From NCBI RefSeq assembly GCF_003859795.1, contig NZ_RQYI01000014.1:1-54109 (forward strand): a DNA stretch of 54,109 nt, in the 5' to 3' direction. Below, piece after piece: positions 16,121 to 45,351 of the stretch. The notes below the pieces were generated by a model. It did no database searches. It worked only from the letters and a program-made list of their open reading frames with translations, and was not told the DNA's origin. Position 1 is the first letter of the stretch; every line of letters begins with the position of its first letter. Source of the DNA: Alloprevotella sp. OH1205_COT-284. GTDB lineage: Bacteria; Bacteroidota; Bacteroidia; Bacteroidales; Bacteroidaceae. Position numbers and translations under genes: made by a program.

Positions 16121-16172
16121 ACCCTCCGTTGCGCCGTTTTCCATTGAAGGGAGCTGTCCCATGATTTCCGCT

Positions 16173-16702
16173 TCCGGCTTCGTCGCATTTCCGATGAAAC
16201 CGCCCTTTTGAGCCGTTTCTCACCCCAATATTTTGTTTTTTGCCGTTTTGCCTTCGCAAAATGCCTTTTCTGTTTGATTGTCAGCGTGTTTGTTGCGAAG
16301 GCAAGTGAAGGCAAACCGTCAAAGTGATTTTTCAATCGTTTGAAAATCAGTACTCTTACGGTGAAGGCAAACGGCGGGGTTTGCCTTCACTTACTTCCGC
16401 TGACGAAAGACGAAAAATGGCTTTTTCGAGTGGGTGAAAGCAAAAATCCGCCCCAACATCATGAAATTCAGGTGTTTGCAATTTCGTCTTTCGGTTTGCC
16501 TTCACTTGCCTTCACCGGAAATCTCTGAAAACCATGTCGTTGGGTCGTTTTGCGAAGGCAGTGAAGGCAAAAACATAATTCTATGGAACGCGCGCGTGCG
16601 CGCGAGAAAGGTTGCTTTTCTCGTTTCGACGGGAGATGGCTTTCACTACCTTTGAGATAGAAATTTCTACTCCCAAGGTAGAAATGCCCACCTCTCAGGC
16701 AG
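16173..16702 (+). repeat. Dispersed intergenic repeat, family B, copy 1
   Basis: About 530 bases aligned with 44819-45351. Shared parts in order: CGATGAAACCG, a TTTTTTGCCGTTTTGCC block, GCGAAGGCAAGTGAAGGCAAA, TTTTTCAATCGTTTGAAAAT, ACGGTGAAGGCAAACGGCGG, CTGACGAAAGACGAAA, a second TTGCCTTCACTTGCCTTC, the GCGCGTGCGCGCGAG tract (16588-16606), and a TAGAAATTTCTA hairpin module (16650-16702). The GAAGGCA heptamer occurs many times in both orientations. Stops occur in every frame in one or the other copy, so it is non-coding. Confidence 0.88.
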
Positions 16703-27763: not shown

Positions 27764-27794
27764 TTTGCCGTTTAGAAAAAACTTCCTACTTTTG
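27764..27794 (+). promoter_or_regulatory. Promoter of tRNA-Met
   Basis: TTTG (27764-27767) lies 19 bases before TACTTTTG (27787-27794), a full match to the Bacteroidota promoter, about 20 bases before the tRNA. Confidence 0.8.
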
Positions 27795-27813
27795 CACTCG
27801 AAATTAAAACCAC

Positions 27814-27887
27814 GGCGAGGTAGCTCAGATGGTTAGAGCGCAGGATTCATAATCCTGAGGTCCCGAGTTCAATCCTCGGCCTCGCTA
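27814..27887 (+). tRNA. tRNA-Met (CAT)
   Basis: A 74-base cloverleaf: acceptor GGCGAGG with CCTCGCT (one G.T end pair), D arm GCTC..GAGC, anticodon stem CAGGA/TCCTG with loop TTCATAA (anticodon CAT), and T arm CCGAG-TTCAATC-CTCGG. CCA is not encoded. The G1 start excludes initiator tRNA. A CAT anticodon could also be tRNA-Ile with lysidine; overall resemblance favours elongator Met. Confidence 0.93.
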
Positions 27888-27892
27888 CTTTG

Positions 27893-27959: not shown

Positions 27960-28150
27960 TGGGAAGTAGAAAATTCCACATAGGAGGTCGTGACGATTCT
28001 CTGCTTCGCTGTCTTCTTGCAATCTCTCACGCGCTCACGCGTTACCCTAATGAGCGATTTTTACCTTCACTTGCCTTCGCAAGGAATTCGCTGACATTCA
28101 GATGATAAGGCGTTTTAGCGGAGGCAAAACGGCAAAAATAAAATATAGAG
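27960..28150 (-). repeat. Dispersed repeat, family B, shortened inverted copy
   Basis: In reverse orientation this carries the two ends of family B: the GTAGAAAATTCC-type module (27967), a CACGCGCTCACGCG tract (28029-28042), the TTCACTTGCCTTCGC block (about 28063) and the TTTTAGCGGAGGCAAAACGGCAAAAATAAAATATAG end (28108-28143). The middle 300 bases of the full-length copies are missing. Confidence 0.78.
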
Positions 28151-28568
28151 GTAGGGAAACGGGCAAAAAGAGCGATTTTATCGGAAGTGCGGAGGCTGCA
28201 GAAACGGAAGTAATAGAGCAGATCGATTAATGGGAATTTCAGTGTCTGACAGATGCCGATAGTGGAGAGGGGAGCCCGATTTTTGACATTGCGGATGCGT
28301 TGCGAACAATGGATGTTCGAATAGGCATATTCAAACAAATCAACCATTATCGGAGAGCAATAATACTGATTTTGTAAGCGAAATGTGCGCCCATAAGGCA
28401 AACCTAAAATCCGGAAAATTGTTTTGCGGATTAAAATGTATAAATTCTGATAATTTACTGATGTACAGATGTTTTTCGAGAGAAAGAATATCCAATCCGA
28501 AAAAAATGGAATGGACAGTGTTATAAGAAACTTTTACAGGGATTTTATAATAAGAAAGTGAATATTAT
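28151..28568. other. AT-rich stretch before the ATPase operon, no supported gene
   Basis: Base composition drops in AT-rich steps towards the operon. A minus-strand frame (28042-28401) runs into the repeat and is probably chance. No integrase, attachment repeat or tRNA fragment was recognised. Confidence 0.5.
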
Positions 28569-28596
28569 TTTGAATCACAGATAATTGTTAACTTTG
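28569..28596 (+). promoter_or_regulatory. Promoter of the ATPase-HNH operon
   Basis: TAACTTTG (28589-28596) is a perfect -7 box 19 bases before the ATG. TTTG at 28569-28572 is 16 bases upstream, slightly short for -33. Leader about 15 bases. Confidence 0.6.
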
Positions 28597-28615: not shown

Positions 28616-30733
28616 ATGTTGACGCCTATAGCACTTAGAGTATTATCAGACGACAGTGTCGGTAAAAGGAAACTGAAAACAAATAAAGTATATTATTTGT
28701 TAGACGGTTTTGAGATTACAAGAGAAGGGGATTTATGCGTTTCTCCCTATCGTCTTGAAAAGGATATTGTTTTTCAGAAATTATTCTCTGATCCAGGTAG
28801 TCCGGATATAAGTATTTCTGCGATTGTTGGTGAGAATGGCTCAGGAAAAAGTTCATTAGTTGAATTTTATATGCGATTGGTGAATAACTTTGCAGCAGCC
28901 ACATTAGGAGAGTACCAAACTAACCCCGGCTCTCAACATTTGCATTACATAGATAATATTGCAGGTGAATACTATTATATGATGGATGGAATACCATATA
29001 GATTAACAATTAAAAGCCGAAAGGTACTATTGGGGCGCTATTCTGATATAAAGGAAGAGGTAAAAGGGATGCGTAAGTATGTCTTACTTGATGAAAAAAA
29101 TATAAATAGCGAAATGAGCGAATCACCGATGAAGGGTATATCAAAGTCGAAGGATGATAATTCGTTAAATGGTTTATATGGTAGTTTTTTCTACACCTAT
29201 ATATCGAACTATAGCATTTACGCATATAATACAACCGACTACCACCAAGAATGTAATAGTAATGAAAGAGAGGCATTAATCAGACAGGACAAGAAAAAGA
29301 TATATGATGTGGAGTATCGAAATTGGTTGAATGGCATATTTCATAAAAACGATGGCTATCAAACTCCTATTGTATTATCACCCTTTAGGACTGAAGGAAA
29401 TATTGATATTAACACCGAAAATAAACTATCCAGAGAACGATTAATCACTCTATTGATAATGCCCAAATCTCAATTTCGCATTATTAATGGTCATCTTAAA
29501 GTTACTGGACTTAAGTTGTCCAATAGAGGAATAGAGTATAATGCGAAATACTTAAACCGGCATCTTGGATTACGGCTACAGCAAAAAGGTTTTGATAAAT
29601 TCAAATCCTCCATAGTGAAATATTGGGGCGAGATGATAGCTGAAAAATTAGAAGGCTTCTCCAAGGAGCGTAAACATTATGAAGCCGCTGTTGGCTATTT
29701 GGTATATAAAACCTTGAAAATATCAAAAAAATATAAGCAATACAATAATTTCTTTCGAAAGCATCATACTATAAGATATAAAATTGACGAGGAAGCTCTT
29801 CGCAAGTTAATTATACGTATGAGTAAAGACCATTCTCATATTACAAGAAAGATACGTCAGACATTATCATATATTGTTTATGGAATATATGATAACGATA
29901 GAGATTCTTGTACCTTTGCTATCAATAAAATCTCTAAGGGTATAAAGGATATAGAAGAACAGCAGAAAGCAGAAACTGGTATAGGAAAGAAGTTTATTTA
30001 TTCTGTAGAAGAATTAGTTCCGCCTCCATTTTATGACATTCAGATAGAACTTCAAGATATATATAATAAGAATCCCGTTCTATTTGAAACTCTAAGTTCT
30101 GGAGAAAGGCAACAAACATATTCTATTAGTGCCCTCTTGTATCATCTTTCCAATCTTGATTCTGTATGGAAAGATACAAACAAACAACGTGTTGCCTATA
30201 AACATATTAATGTTGTAATGGAGGAAATTGAATTATATTTCCATCCGGAATTACAACGAACATATATCAAGAATCTTCTTGAAGGAATCAAACAAATGCA
30301 TATTTCTAATATCAGAAGTATTCATATATGCTTTGTTACGCATTCTCCTTTCGTTTTGTCTGATATTCCGAGCCGTAATATCTTAGCATTAAAATTAAAC
30401 TCTAATGATACGGATGATACAGAAAAAACTCATTTAAGCACATTTGGAGCCAATATTCATGATATACTCAAAGATAGTTTCTTTCTGACGAAGGGGGCTA
30501 TTGGTGCATATGCGGAGTTTATCATCAAAAGCATTATTAAAGAAATGGAAGATGAAAAGAAAAATAGAAAAGCTGATGATAAAAAGATTCATGAGAGGAT
30601 TATGCTAATTGATGAGCCCATTATAAGGAATGTTCTTTTAGAGGAATATCACAGAGTTTTTCCTGAAACAGATAAAGAACAGAAGATAAAAGAATTGCAA
30701 CGTCAAATAGATGAACTAATATGTGGAAATTAA
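28616..30733 (+). CDS. ABC/SMC-like AAA ATPase of a Septu-like defence operon
   Basis: 705 residues, cytoplasmic. A Walker A loop GENGSGKS (72-79) comes after about 70 residues. A long insert (about 80-480) with coiled, Lys/Tyr-rich stretches separates it from the ABC signature LSSGERQ (493-499), Walker B with E536-E537 (VVMEEIELYFHPE) and a switch His H576 (THSPFVLSD). This is the OLD/SMC-type ATPase architecture (AAA_15/AAA_21) found in PtuA, GajA and similar anti-phage proteins; no TOPRIM domain is seen. It overlaps the HNH gene by 13 bases. The pairing with HNH recalls Septu, but PtuA is usually clearly shorter. AT-rich compared with its neighbours. Function as defence is inferred. Confidence 0.82.
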   Translation: MLTPIALRVLSDDSVGKRKLKTNKVYYLLDGFEITREGDLCVSPYRLEKDIVFQKLFSDPGSPDISISAIVGENGSGKSSLVEFYMRLVNNFAAATLGEYQTNPGSQHLHYIDNIAGEYYYMMDGIPYRLTIKSRKVLLGRYSDIKEEVKGMRKYVLLDEKNINSEMSESPMKGISKSKDDNSLNGLYGSFFYTYISNYSIYAYNTTDYHQECNSNEREALIRQDKKKIYDVEYRNWLNGIFHKNDGYQTPIVLSPFRTEGNIDINTENKLSRERLITLLIMPKSQFRIINGHLKVTGLKLSNRGIEYNAKYLNRHLGLRLQQKGFDKFKSSIVKYWGEMIAEKLEGFSKERKHYEAAVGYLVYKTLKISKKYKQYNNFFRKHHTIRYKIDEEALRKLIIRMSKDHSHITRKIRQTLSYIVYGIYDNDRDSCTFAINKISKGIKDIEEQQKAETGIGKKFIYSVEELVPPPFYDIQIELQDIYNKNPVLFETLSSGERQQTYSISALLYHLSNLDSVWKDTNKQRVAYKHINVVMEEIELYFHPELQRTYIKNLLEGIKQMHISNIRSIHICFVTHSPFVLSDIPSRNILALKLNSNDTDDTEKTHLSTFGANIHDILKDSFFLTKGAIGAYAEFIIKSIIKEMEDEKKNRKADDKKIHERIMLIDEPIIRNVLLEEYHRVFPETDKEQKIKELQRQIDELICGN

Positions 30734-31806
30734 AAGCACCGTCATCCGAACTAATCACATGGTATAAAGATTTGATGCTTGAAGGATTATATGGTCGAAT
30801 AAATGGTTCTTCATTAGAACAGCGTATAAAAGATATTCTTATACCTACGAATGAAGAGAGTCATGATAGAGCTATATTAGAAAAGTTGTTGATTGGTAAG
30901 CCTGATGAGTCACATGAATTATGTAATGATTTAATGGGACAGATTGTTCTTGGCTACAATGAAAATGAATTCGAATCATATCTTGAAGCAAAAAAGAAAG
31001 GAGACAGACGCGATGAGGAACAAGACGCTTTATACCGAAAATATTCCAATGTGCTAAAAAAACTACTTGATGTATTTGAGTACGACGGCCAACTATCAAG
31101 GAATAAATCACGATCATATAAGCTGTCAATAGAACAGGGACATAATACCTGTACATATTGTAATCGTCAATATATTATCACCATTGATGGGAAAAACAAC
31201 AGTGAACGAATCGCCCGTCCACAATTAGATCATTGGTTTTCCAAAGAATTATATCCTTTGTTGTCACTAAACATATACAATTTAATTCCCTGCTGTTCAA
31301 TATGCAACAGTTCAATAAAAGGGAATGCTATTTTTAAACTTGATACCCATATACATCCATACCTTGATTCTACCCCTCAAGAGCCAATTTTTAAGTTTAA
31401 GTATAAATTAGAACAAGATATGACATATTCGGTGATTTGTGAAAATGTGAGTGATGAAAAGGAAAAGAATATGCTCAAAGCTTTTGAAATTGAAAAACTC
31501 TATGCGTATCATGGAGAACTTGAGGTTAGAGATATTTTGCTATTCTTTGAGAAAAATACAAGCTCATATCTCTCACATTTACTAAATGATACCTTAAAAA
31601 TATATGATTATACAGAACATTCTATCTATAGAATGTTTTTTGGCACAGAGTTAGATCCGAAAGAAAATCTCAATAGACCATTTAGTAAATTAAAACGCGA
31701 TATCCTTACTCAACTTGGCGTACTTGAAAATGGACACATTAAAATAAGACAGCATTGGTGTTATATTGATTTTGTGGATTTGGCTTCTATCTCAGAACGG
31801 ATTTGA
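30721..31806 (+). CDS. HNH endonuclease partner of the ATPase
   Basis: 361 residues. A zinc-finger HNH core lies in the middle: C144-x2-C147 (CTYCNRQY), LDH with H171 (QLDHWFSK), NLIPCCSICN with C192-x2-C195 and N196. This is the DH...N...CxxCN form of PtuB-like and McrA-like nucleases. About 140 residues precede it and 160 follow with no recognised domain; PtuB proteins are usually shorter. The start codon lies inside the end of the ATPase gene (13-base overlap), so the two proteins are translationally coupled and likely form a complex in which the ATPase gates a DNA (or tRNA) nuclease. Defence role inferred. Confidence 0.82.
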   Translation: MWKLKAPSSELITWYKDLMLEGLYGRINGSSLEQRIKDILIPTNEESHDRAILEKLLIGKPDESHELCNDLMGQIVLGYNENEFESYLEAKKKGDRRDEEQDALYRKYSNVLKKLLDVFEYDGQLSRNKSRSYKLSIEQGHNTCTYCNRQYIITIDGKNNSERIARPQLDHWFSKELYPLLSLNIYNLIPCCSICNSSIKGNAIFKLDTHIHPYLDSTPQEPIFKFKYKLEQDMTYSVICENVSDEKEKNMLKAFEIEKLYAYHGELEVRDILLFFEKNTSSYLSHLLNDTLKIYDYTEHSIYRMFFGTELDPKENLNRPFSKLKRDILTQLGVLENGHIKIRQHWCYIDFVDLASISERI

Positions 31807-31890: not shown

Positions 31891-31898
31891 TTTGATTG

Positions 31899-31986
31899 CG
31901 GAGAGAGGGGGATTCGAACCCCCGAAACGCTTTTGACGTTTACACGCTTTCCAGGCGTGCCTCTTCAACCACTCGAGCACCTCTCC
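31899..31986 (-). tRNA. tRNA-Ser (GGA)
   Basis: 88-base class II tRNA on the minus strand: acceptor GGAGAGG/TCTCTCC, D arm with CTCGAGTGG, anticodon stem CACGC/GCGTG with loop CTGGAAA (anticodon GGA), a long variable arm (AAACGTC..AAAGCGTTT region) and T arm GGGGG-TTCGAAT-CCCCC. Discriminator G; CCA not encoded. Confidence 0.95.
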
Positions 31987-32163: not shown

Positions 32164-32195
32164 TTTGGAGTTTTACGTAAAACTTCCTATCTTTG
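32164..32195 (+). promoter_or_regulatory. Promoter of tRNA-Thr
   Basis: TTTG (32164-32167) lies 20 bases before TATCTTTG (32188-32195), 24 bases upstream of the tRNA; a textbook Bacteroidota promoter. Confidence 0.85.
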
Positions 32196-32219
32196 CACCG
32201 CTTTTACAAAGAAAACCTC

Positions 32220-32292
<73 letters not shown>

Positions 32293-32297
32293 CAAAT

Positions 32298-44818: not shown

Positions 44819-45351
44819 CGGCTTCGCCCACCGTCGCGTTTCCGATGAAACCGTTCTTTTTCGGCGTTTTCTTCCCCTATATTTTATTTTTTGCCGTTTT
44901 GCCTCCGCTAAAACGCCTTGTCAGCTGAATTTCAGCGCATTCCTTGCGAAGGCAAGTGAAGGCAAACGGTTAAAGTGGTTTTTCAATCGTTTGAAAATGA
45001 GAATACTTACGGTGAAGGCAAACGGCGGAGTTTGCTTTCACTTGCTTTCGCTGACGAAAGACGAAATACGGCTTTTTAGAGTGACTGAAAGCAAAAATAC
45101 AAGACAATGCCATGATATTCAGGTGTTTGTGGTTCCTTCTTTCAGTTTGCCTTCACTTGCCTTCGCAAGAAACTATTTGATATTCAGTTGATAAGACGTT
45201 TTTGCGAAGGCAGTGAAAGCAAAATGCAATCATCATAGAATACGCGCGTGCGCGCGAGAAAGGCCGTTTTTTCGCGCGGATAGGAGGCAGATATTCTTAC
45301 CTCTGAGCTGAGAAATTCTACCTCAAAGGTAGAATTTCTCAGCTCAGAGGT
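44819..45351 (+). repeat. Dispersed intergenic repeat, family B, copy 2
   Basis: Collinear with 16173-16702, including the GAAGGCA heptamers, the alternating GCGCGTGCGCGCG tract (about 45242-45257) and the hairpin module at the right end, which here is a perfect palindrome (see 45299-45351). Confidence 0.88.
45299..45351. repeat. Perfect 25-bp inverted repeat with 3-base loop
   Basis: Bases 45299-45323 are the exact reverse complement of 45327-45351, separated by CAA. The arms contain ACCTCTGAG and GAAATTCTACCT. It forms the right end of family B copy 2. No T run follows, so it is not a standard terminator. Confidence 0.95.

Follow-up and report, generated by a model that had tools for sequence, protein, structure and literature searches.

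The closest described systems are built on a pair formed by the ATPase PtuA and the HNH nuclease PtuB. The PtuAB pair of retron-Eco7 cleaves tRNA-Tyr (PMC11555353), as does that of Septu Ec-B88, in which exchanging H75 and N91 of PtuB abolished defence (PMC13096335); the Septu of E. coli ATCC 25922 is reported to cut nicked DNA (as cited in PMC11555353). Related to Septu is PDC-M62, a candidate system in PADLOC-DB 2.0.0 with the components PDC-M62A and PDC-M62B. PMC11811056 terms PDC-x entries 'unpublished candidate systems' and dropped 203 PDC-M62 calls in the B. cereus group as duplicating Septu calls; no experimental work on PDC-M62 was found in the literature searched. Here, a two-gene locus of Alloprevotella sp. 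OH1205_COT-284 was analysed within a 54,109-nucleotide stretch (the window) of contig NZ_RQYI01000014.1, which is part of a 2.3-Mb genome (93 contigs, 95.6% complete). Judged from its sequence, the pair is a further member of this existing, uncharacterised, Septu-related candidate family, and the two genes probably constitute a stand-alone Septu-type (PtuAB-like) abortive-infection system. The basis for this reading is intact open reading frames (ORFs), conserved catalytic residues, PtuA and PtuB folds in predicted models, near-obligatory pairing, a patchy distribution and the defence neighbours of relatives.

Family assignment, fold and conserved residues

Searches against PADLOC-DB gave PDC-M62A as the top match of the ATPase (E 2.3e-42, residues 62-701) and PDC-M62B as that of the HNH protein (1.2e-47, residues 53-334), and the genes adjoin with the ATPase first. 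PDC-M62 was also the top family for all nine further HNH proteins and the one further ATPase scanned. The PtuA1 match of the ATPase (1.3e-13) covered residues 483-623 only, and PDC-M01B (7.6e-16) ranked between PDC-M62B and PtuB1 (1.4e-7) for the HNH protein. In Pfam, the ATPase scored above cut-off for AAA_21 alone and the HNH protein for none; in NCBIfam, all scores lay far under the cut-offs given in parentheses (PtuA, 46 bits (500); PtuB, 15.1 (150); TIGR02646, 23.4 (52.15); TIGR04435 likewise). Neither PADLOC-DB nor NCBIfam yielded a strong full-length match to PtuA/PtuB profiles that was better than those to other families. A preliminary description of the locus had proposed a defence pair resembling Septu but belonging to a larger subtype; the Septu likeness is borne out by the profiles, the fold, the near-perfect pairing and the defence neighbours of relatives, but the subtype is an already catalogued candidate, since PDC-M62A and PDC-M62B are the top PADLOC matches. 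Both proteins do exceed most of the PtuA1 and PtuB1 profiles matched, as had been remarked; PtuA1 profiles matched by the window ATPase span 239-535 residues, but others reach 773, and PtuB1 profiles span 156-391, so size alone sets no boundary to Septu.

Predicted single-chain models gave a PtuA fold for the ATPase and a PtuB fold for the HNH protein, with the retron PtuA and PtuB as the closest folds. By phmmer against PDB sequences, the best ATPase match was retron PtuA (E 0.0032), and the HNH protein had no match. Two structural remarks of the preliminary description did not hold. Solved PtuB chains align with the HNH model from residue 1 to 330-341, covering the N- and C-terminal regions that it had left unassigned, and its 400-residue insert in the ATPase is the gap between the two halves of the ABC/SMC head. 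From the Walker A lysine to the Walker B glutamate there are 459 residues in the window ATPase (median 404, range 340-606 in 76 homologues), compared with a computed 273 for the corresponding K43-D316 distance in PtuA of Septu Ec-B88, an excess nearer 190 residues.

Both ORFs are intact and overlap by 13 bases; this overlap, the ORFs themselves, the Walker A motif, LSSGERQ, E536-E537 and the two CxxC pairs were all found where they had first been described (Table 1). Conservation across 90 HNH proteins and 76 ATPases indicates that the motif residues are not a matter of chance. Also invariant in the 76 ATPases are S582, D583, F610, F622 and G630, while position 536 carries D in 62 of them and E, as in the window copy, in 14. 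In the 90 aligned HNH proteins, N196 is invariant and K200 is present in 89, and the spacing of H171 and N187 in the window protein (16) equals that of H75 and N91 in PtuB. Upstream of the ATPase gene, TAACTTTG (28589..28596, + strand) bears, by eye, a weak resemblance to the consensus of the Bacteroidota -7 element, with no -33 element at the expected spacing.

Table 1. Coordinates of the gene pair, its motifs and the nearby tRNA genes in the window.
Feature	Position	Strand	Basis or conservation
PtuA-like ABC/SMC-type ATPase, PDC-M62A family, 705 residues	28616..30733	+	ORF, motifs, PADLOC profile, predicted fold
Walker A GENGSGKS, ATPase residues 72-79	28829..28852	+	G72, G77, K78 in 76/76 homologues
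ABC signature LSSGERQ, ATPase residues 493-499	30092..30112	+	S494, G496 in 76/76
Walker B, ATPase residues 530-537, catalytic E537	30203..30226	+	E537 in 76/76
Family motif FGAN, ATPase residues 610-613	30443..30454	+	F610 in 76/76, A612 in 73, N613 in 73
PtuB-like HNH nuclease, PDC-M62B family, 361 residues	30721..31806	+	ORF, motifs, PADLOC profile, predicted fold
First CxxC, C144-C147 of HNH protein (putative zinc ligands)	31150..31161	+	90/90 homologues
HNH core D170-H171	31228..31233	+	90/90 homologues
HNH core N187	31279..31281	+	90/90 homologues
Second CxxC, C192-C195 (putative zinc ligands)	31294..31305	+	C192 in 89/90, C195 in 90/90
C-terminal K323...D327 motif of HNH protein	31687..31701	+	K323 in 85/90, D327 in 90/90
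tRNA-Met(cat)	27814-27888	+	
tRNA-Ser(gga)	31898-31986	-	
tRNA-Thr(cgt)	32220-32293	+	

In a tree of 87 HNH rows, built by a quick method with support from the Shimodaira-Hasegawa-like approximate likelihood ratio test (SH-aLRT) only, no bootstrap and an unknown root, nine of the ten PtuB-labelled rows formed one group (SH-aLRT 94), and the window protein and 65 of the 67 candidate rows formed another (83). Four of the ten PtuB labels (L131, L132, L135, L138) and one of the two M01 labels (L126) were verified with PADLOC; the others were assigned from low scores. The window protein pairs with that of a Paludibacteraceae metagenome-assembled genome (MAG; 96) in an 11-row clade that is mostly Bacteroidales (96). 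A further small group (L122-L125 and L127-L129; seven rows, SH-aLRT 90) was scanned in four members (L122, L123, L128, L129), all of which gave only weak matches, at best 1e-13 to 1e-17, to profiles of PDC-M01B, PDC-M62B and in part PtuB.

We infer the following for the complex, its trigger, its target and its effect on phage. The PtuA-like ATPase would dimerise or oligomerise with ATP and, on this ATP-dependent PtuA-type scaffold, would keep the HNH protein bound and inactive. When a phage infects, the ATPase may change its nucleotide state, or its head may engage phage nucleic acid. The released HNH nuclease would then cut a nucleic acid required by the phage, be it host tRNA, like the pairs of retron-Eco7 and Septu Ec-B88, or phage DNA, as is reported for the Septu of E. 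coli ATCC 25922, whereupon growth of the infected cell would stop. The fold tie to PtuAB thereby gives the PDC-M62 family a testable mechanism, namely tRNA or DNA cleavage.

Pairing, distribution and neighbours of the relatives

PDC-M62-like HNH proteins are frequent: two peptide patterns found at least 527 relatives, and the best 80 by similarity to the window HNH, nearly all from Bacteroidota, serve as the genome loci here; the nearest named relatives among them are Paludibacteraceae and Bacteroidales MAGs. An ATPase gene lies no more than 300 bases upstream of the HNH gene in 78 of the 80 (47 overlapping, 30 within 30 bases and one further). The exceptions are L032, in which no ATPase was found, and L069, with a shortened HNH ORF and the ATPase end approximately 400 bases upstream; some ATPases of relatives are broken by contig ends or in pieces. 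Protein distances of ATPase and HNH were correlated across 72 loci (Spearman 0.43; Pearson 0.52, a value reached by 0 of 2000 permutations), a correlation that shared ancestry alone can explain. In L038, L042 and L053, a second homologous ATPase gene lies directly 3' of the HNH gene (ATPase-HNH-ATPase; E 5e-61 to 7e-79).

Among 101 relatives, the HNH protein was matched in two, namely the window's genome and another genome from the order, and full-length ATPase matches were found in the same two. Across the phylum, 27 of 395 genomes had a match to the HNH profile, with the window's genome and canonical PtuB matches counted; ten weaker matches that were scanned comprised four PtuB, one PDC-M01B, one that was weakly PDC-M62B and four that fit none well. 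By tblastn, 36 of 72,556 plasmid records encode the HNH protein and no INPHARED phage record does at E 1e-5; the pattern scan found it on 22 IMG/VR contigs. PDC-M62-like pairs of L091-L099 lie on IMG/VR contigs of 25-60 kb and are perhaps prophage cargo; the one HNH protein scanned among them, that of L091, fits PDLC04741 at 1.6e-180.

Neighbouring proteins were scanned at 30 of 61 eligible loci (117 proteins, leaving out three own-family ATPase pieces or homologues, two from L053 and one from L021), and 115 proteins from 20 arbitrary regions of other genomes served as a control. At E 1e-15 or better, 194 PADLOC families were matched by the neighbours, with a type I methylase profile (6 proteins) ranking first, before type I specificity profiles (5), compared with seven families in the control (mad3 in three proteins; RtcR, ShosA and PsyrA profiles in one each), which held no HsdM, HsdS or HsdR; such family counts overstate, since there are many profiles per protein type, and the tallies leave the matching protein unspecified. 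In the Pfam tally, which includes the three ATPase pieces or homologues (120 proteins), Methylase_S was found in 5, McrBC, N6_Mtase and the Schlafen group 3 helicase in 3 each, and HSDR_N, AbiV and TIR in 2 each. At 17 loci from the window's clade and its neighbours (90 proteins with the L021 piece), GajA, GajB, QatA, QatC, retron III-A and AbiD profiles came first, with one protein each. A Segatella plasmid copy has qatC on one side and an ATPase-UvrD pair on the other.

Linkage to type I restriction-modification (R-M) was scored with hidden Markov models built from the neighbours' own HsdM and HsdS; 65 of the 80 genome loci have at least 5 kb upstream. Upstream hsdM and hsdS on the same strand were found in 21 of the 80, with the end of hsdS within 1.1 kb of the ATPase gene in 14, within 64 bases in nine and overlapping it by 4 bases in two, and the large gene before hsdM was HsdR in all nine loci scanned. 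The order hsdM-hsdS-ATPase-HNH is nearly contiguous in L039, L044, L055, L057, L060, L064, L072, L079 and L087, with hsdR before hsdM in the six of these that were scanned (L039, L044, L060, L064, L072, L079). Linkage was seen in none of nine loci labelled canonical PtuAB (four of them PADLOC-verified), in none of 30 viral and plasmid loci (the viral and some plasmid loci having short flanks) and in two of eight additional PDC-M62-like loci from the phylum search, at a distance of 7 kb in one of these. On the HNH tree, close linkage (14 of 58 scored rows) required 8 changes, compared with 11-14 in 30 label shuffles; it therefore clusters, yet arose or was lost repeatedly. For this comparison, L012, L063, L071 and one HNH protein of less than 200 residues were dropped, and 19 of the 77 rows were unscored (too little flank, or R-M beyond 1.1 kb). 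The window's 17-row clade had no linkage in its nine scored rows, eight being unscored, and L016 of this clade had an HsdM match and no HsdS match. This linkage is the most interesting by-product of the analysis; it concerns some relatives and not the window copy directly, and the repeated placement behind hsdS permits a direct test of whether a Septu-type nuclease can be coupled to restriction. No published link of PDC-M62, Septu or PtuAB to R-M was found in the literature searched, though one 2024 preprint on embedded defences may contain one.

Setting of the window copy

The pair lies, as first described, in an AT-rich block between tRNA-Met and tRNA-Ser/Thr genes; its G+C content is 0.32-0.375 at 28-32 kb, compared with mostly 0.43-0.58 elsewhere in the window, where another AT-rich stretch lies at 17-19 kb (0.37-0.405). 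The family shows no preference for tRNA genes: one was found within 4 kb in 4 of 53 pairs with enough flank, and 3 of 20 control 9-kb regions hold one. The tRNA cluster named in the preliminary description therefore seems incidental. Integration into a tRNA gene was rejected, since no attachment-site-like repeats flank the block, none of the genome's 12 integrase matches is on this contig, and tRNA genes are not enriched. Two 27-base stretches that are 81% alike (27771-27797 and 32172-32198) precede tRNA-Met and tRNA-Thr; they are probably promoters of a kind common to both tRNA genes and not attachment sites. Across congeners (12 regions, 9 genomes), tRNA-Met lies on the same side of a gamma-lyase-like gene in G005 only, with other genes beyond, and in G033 it lies on the opposite side, beyond a miaA-like gene; there is too little synteny at the site for an empty site to be defined. 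A dispersed repeat of approximately 126 bases is present at 28059-28186, at 16138-16315 (- strand) and at 44840-44966 (- strand) with 45146-45212 (+ strand). It has 62 matches in the genome, the copy at 28059-28186 counted, and the others are 71-89% identical; several copies form inverted pairs with a separation of approximately 180 bases, and the resulting elements of roughly 330-370 bases resemble miniature inverted-repeat transposable elements.

Alternative readings and comparison with described systems

Profiles of PtuA and PtuB fit the window copy poorly. None of the 38 other ORFs of the window matched PADLOC at E 1e-15, which speaks against a defence island here; defence neighbours were found beside relatives and not beside this copy. 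A DNA repair or housekeeping ATPase/nuclease pair of the Rad50/SMC kind, which the preliminary description had itself named as the alternative, is very improbable, and a known housekeeping pair was rejected: the patchy distribution among relatives and across the phylum, the occurrence on plasmids and IMG/VR contigs, and the defence genes adjoining relatives all argue against it. It is just as improbable that the genes are the effector pair of a type I-A-like retron, with a reverse transcriptase and msDNA (multicopy single-stranded DNA) as antitoxin. The modelled folds come closest to retron PtuA and PtuB, but both RVT_1 matches of the genome are on another contig (C32), and the pair has tRNA genes to either side; this reading was rejected for want of a reverse transcriptase on the window's contig, msr/msd not having been sought.

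Unlikely, though less so, is a guard resembling PrrC and RloC, in which a type I R-M enzyme silences the pair or has its state reported by it, and a phage anti-restriction protein that disables the enzyme frees the pair, solitary copies like the window's being derived or having another sensor. The clustered upstream hsdM and hsdS genes, the HsdR genes before them and the absence of linkage from canonical-labelled PtuAB loci fit such a guard, and precedent exists: PMC2610378 describes PrrC as invariably linked to, and silenced by, type Ic R-M, and for RloC it gives 8 of 73 cases with such a link, to type I or type III R-M. However, the viral and plasmid loci and the scored rows of the window's clade are unlinked, and no linkage of the window pair was found among the 38 other ORFs or through HSDR_N and Methylase_S, neither of which matched in the window's genome (N6_Mtase was not sought, and HSDR_N is missing from some HsdR). 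Unrelated defence genes such as DarTG2 (PMC12255303) and TgvAB (PMC11411939) also occur within type I R-M operons, so the linkage can be a matter of embedding alone; for Septu, embedding in Hma is already on record. A broader proposal is speculative and doubtful: PDC-M62 may join PrrC and RloC as a third class of suicide nuclease coupled to restriction. On this view, PtuAB-like pairs would have been placed behind hsdS repeatedly, would stay silent as long as the type I enzyme is intact and would be set free by anti-restriction proteins of phages, and solitary copies like the window's would have been re-wired to another trigger. Altogether, the stand-alone Septu-type system remains the preferred reading; the preliminary observation was sound and its interpretation mostly right, and the profile comparison that it called for put PDC-M62A and PDC-M62B ahead of PtuA1 and PtuB1.

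Compared with described systems, the window pair has no essential difference from PDC-M62, with the same gene order and both proteins matched over most of their length. PDC-M01 has a related HNH protein whose match is far weaker than that of PDC-M62, and its profiles are mostly 216-304 residues long, with one of 366. PARIS (AriA/AriB) has a Toprim protein, AriB, as the partner, whereas the partner in the window pair is an HNH protein. PrrC and RloC likewise combine an ABC ATPase with a nuclease, and their R-M linkage recalls the 14 of 80 PDC-M62 loci within 1.1 kb, but they are single chains with another nuclease domain, according to PMC2610378, and the window pair has no R-M nearby. Type I-A retrons (Ec78/Eco7, Ec83) consist of PtuA, PtuB, a reverse transcriptase and msDNA, whereas the window's contig has no reverse transcriptase. 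With Septu type I, the pair shares a two-gene ATPase-HNH operon, PtuA and PtuB folds (in its predicted models), a CxxC-bearing HNH and the Walker A, signature and Walker B motifs; it differs in its weak, partial profile scores, in the apparent grouping of its HNH protein apart from most PtuB-labelled rows in the quick tree and in proteins larger than most PtuA1 and PtuB1 profiles matched.
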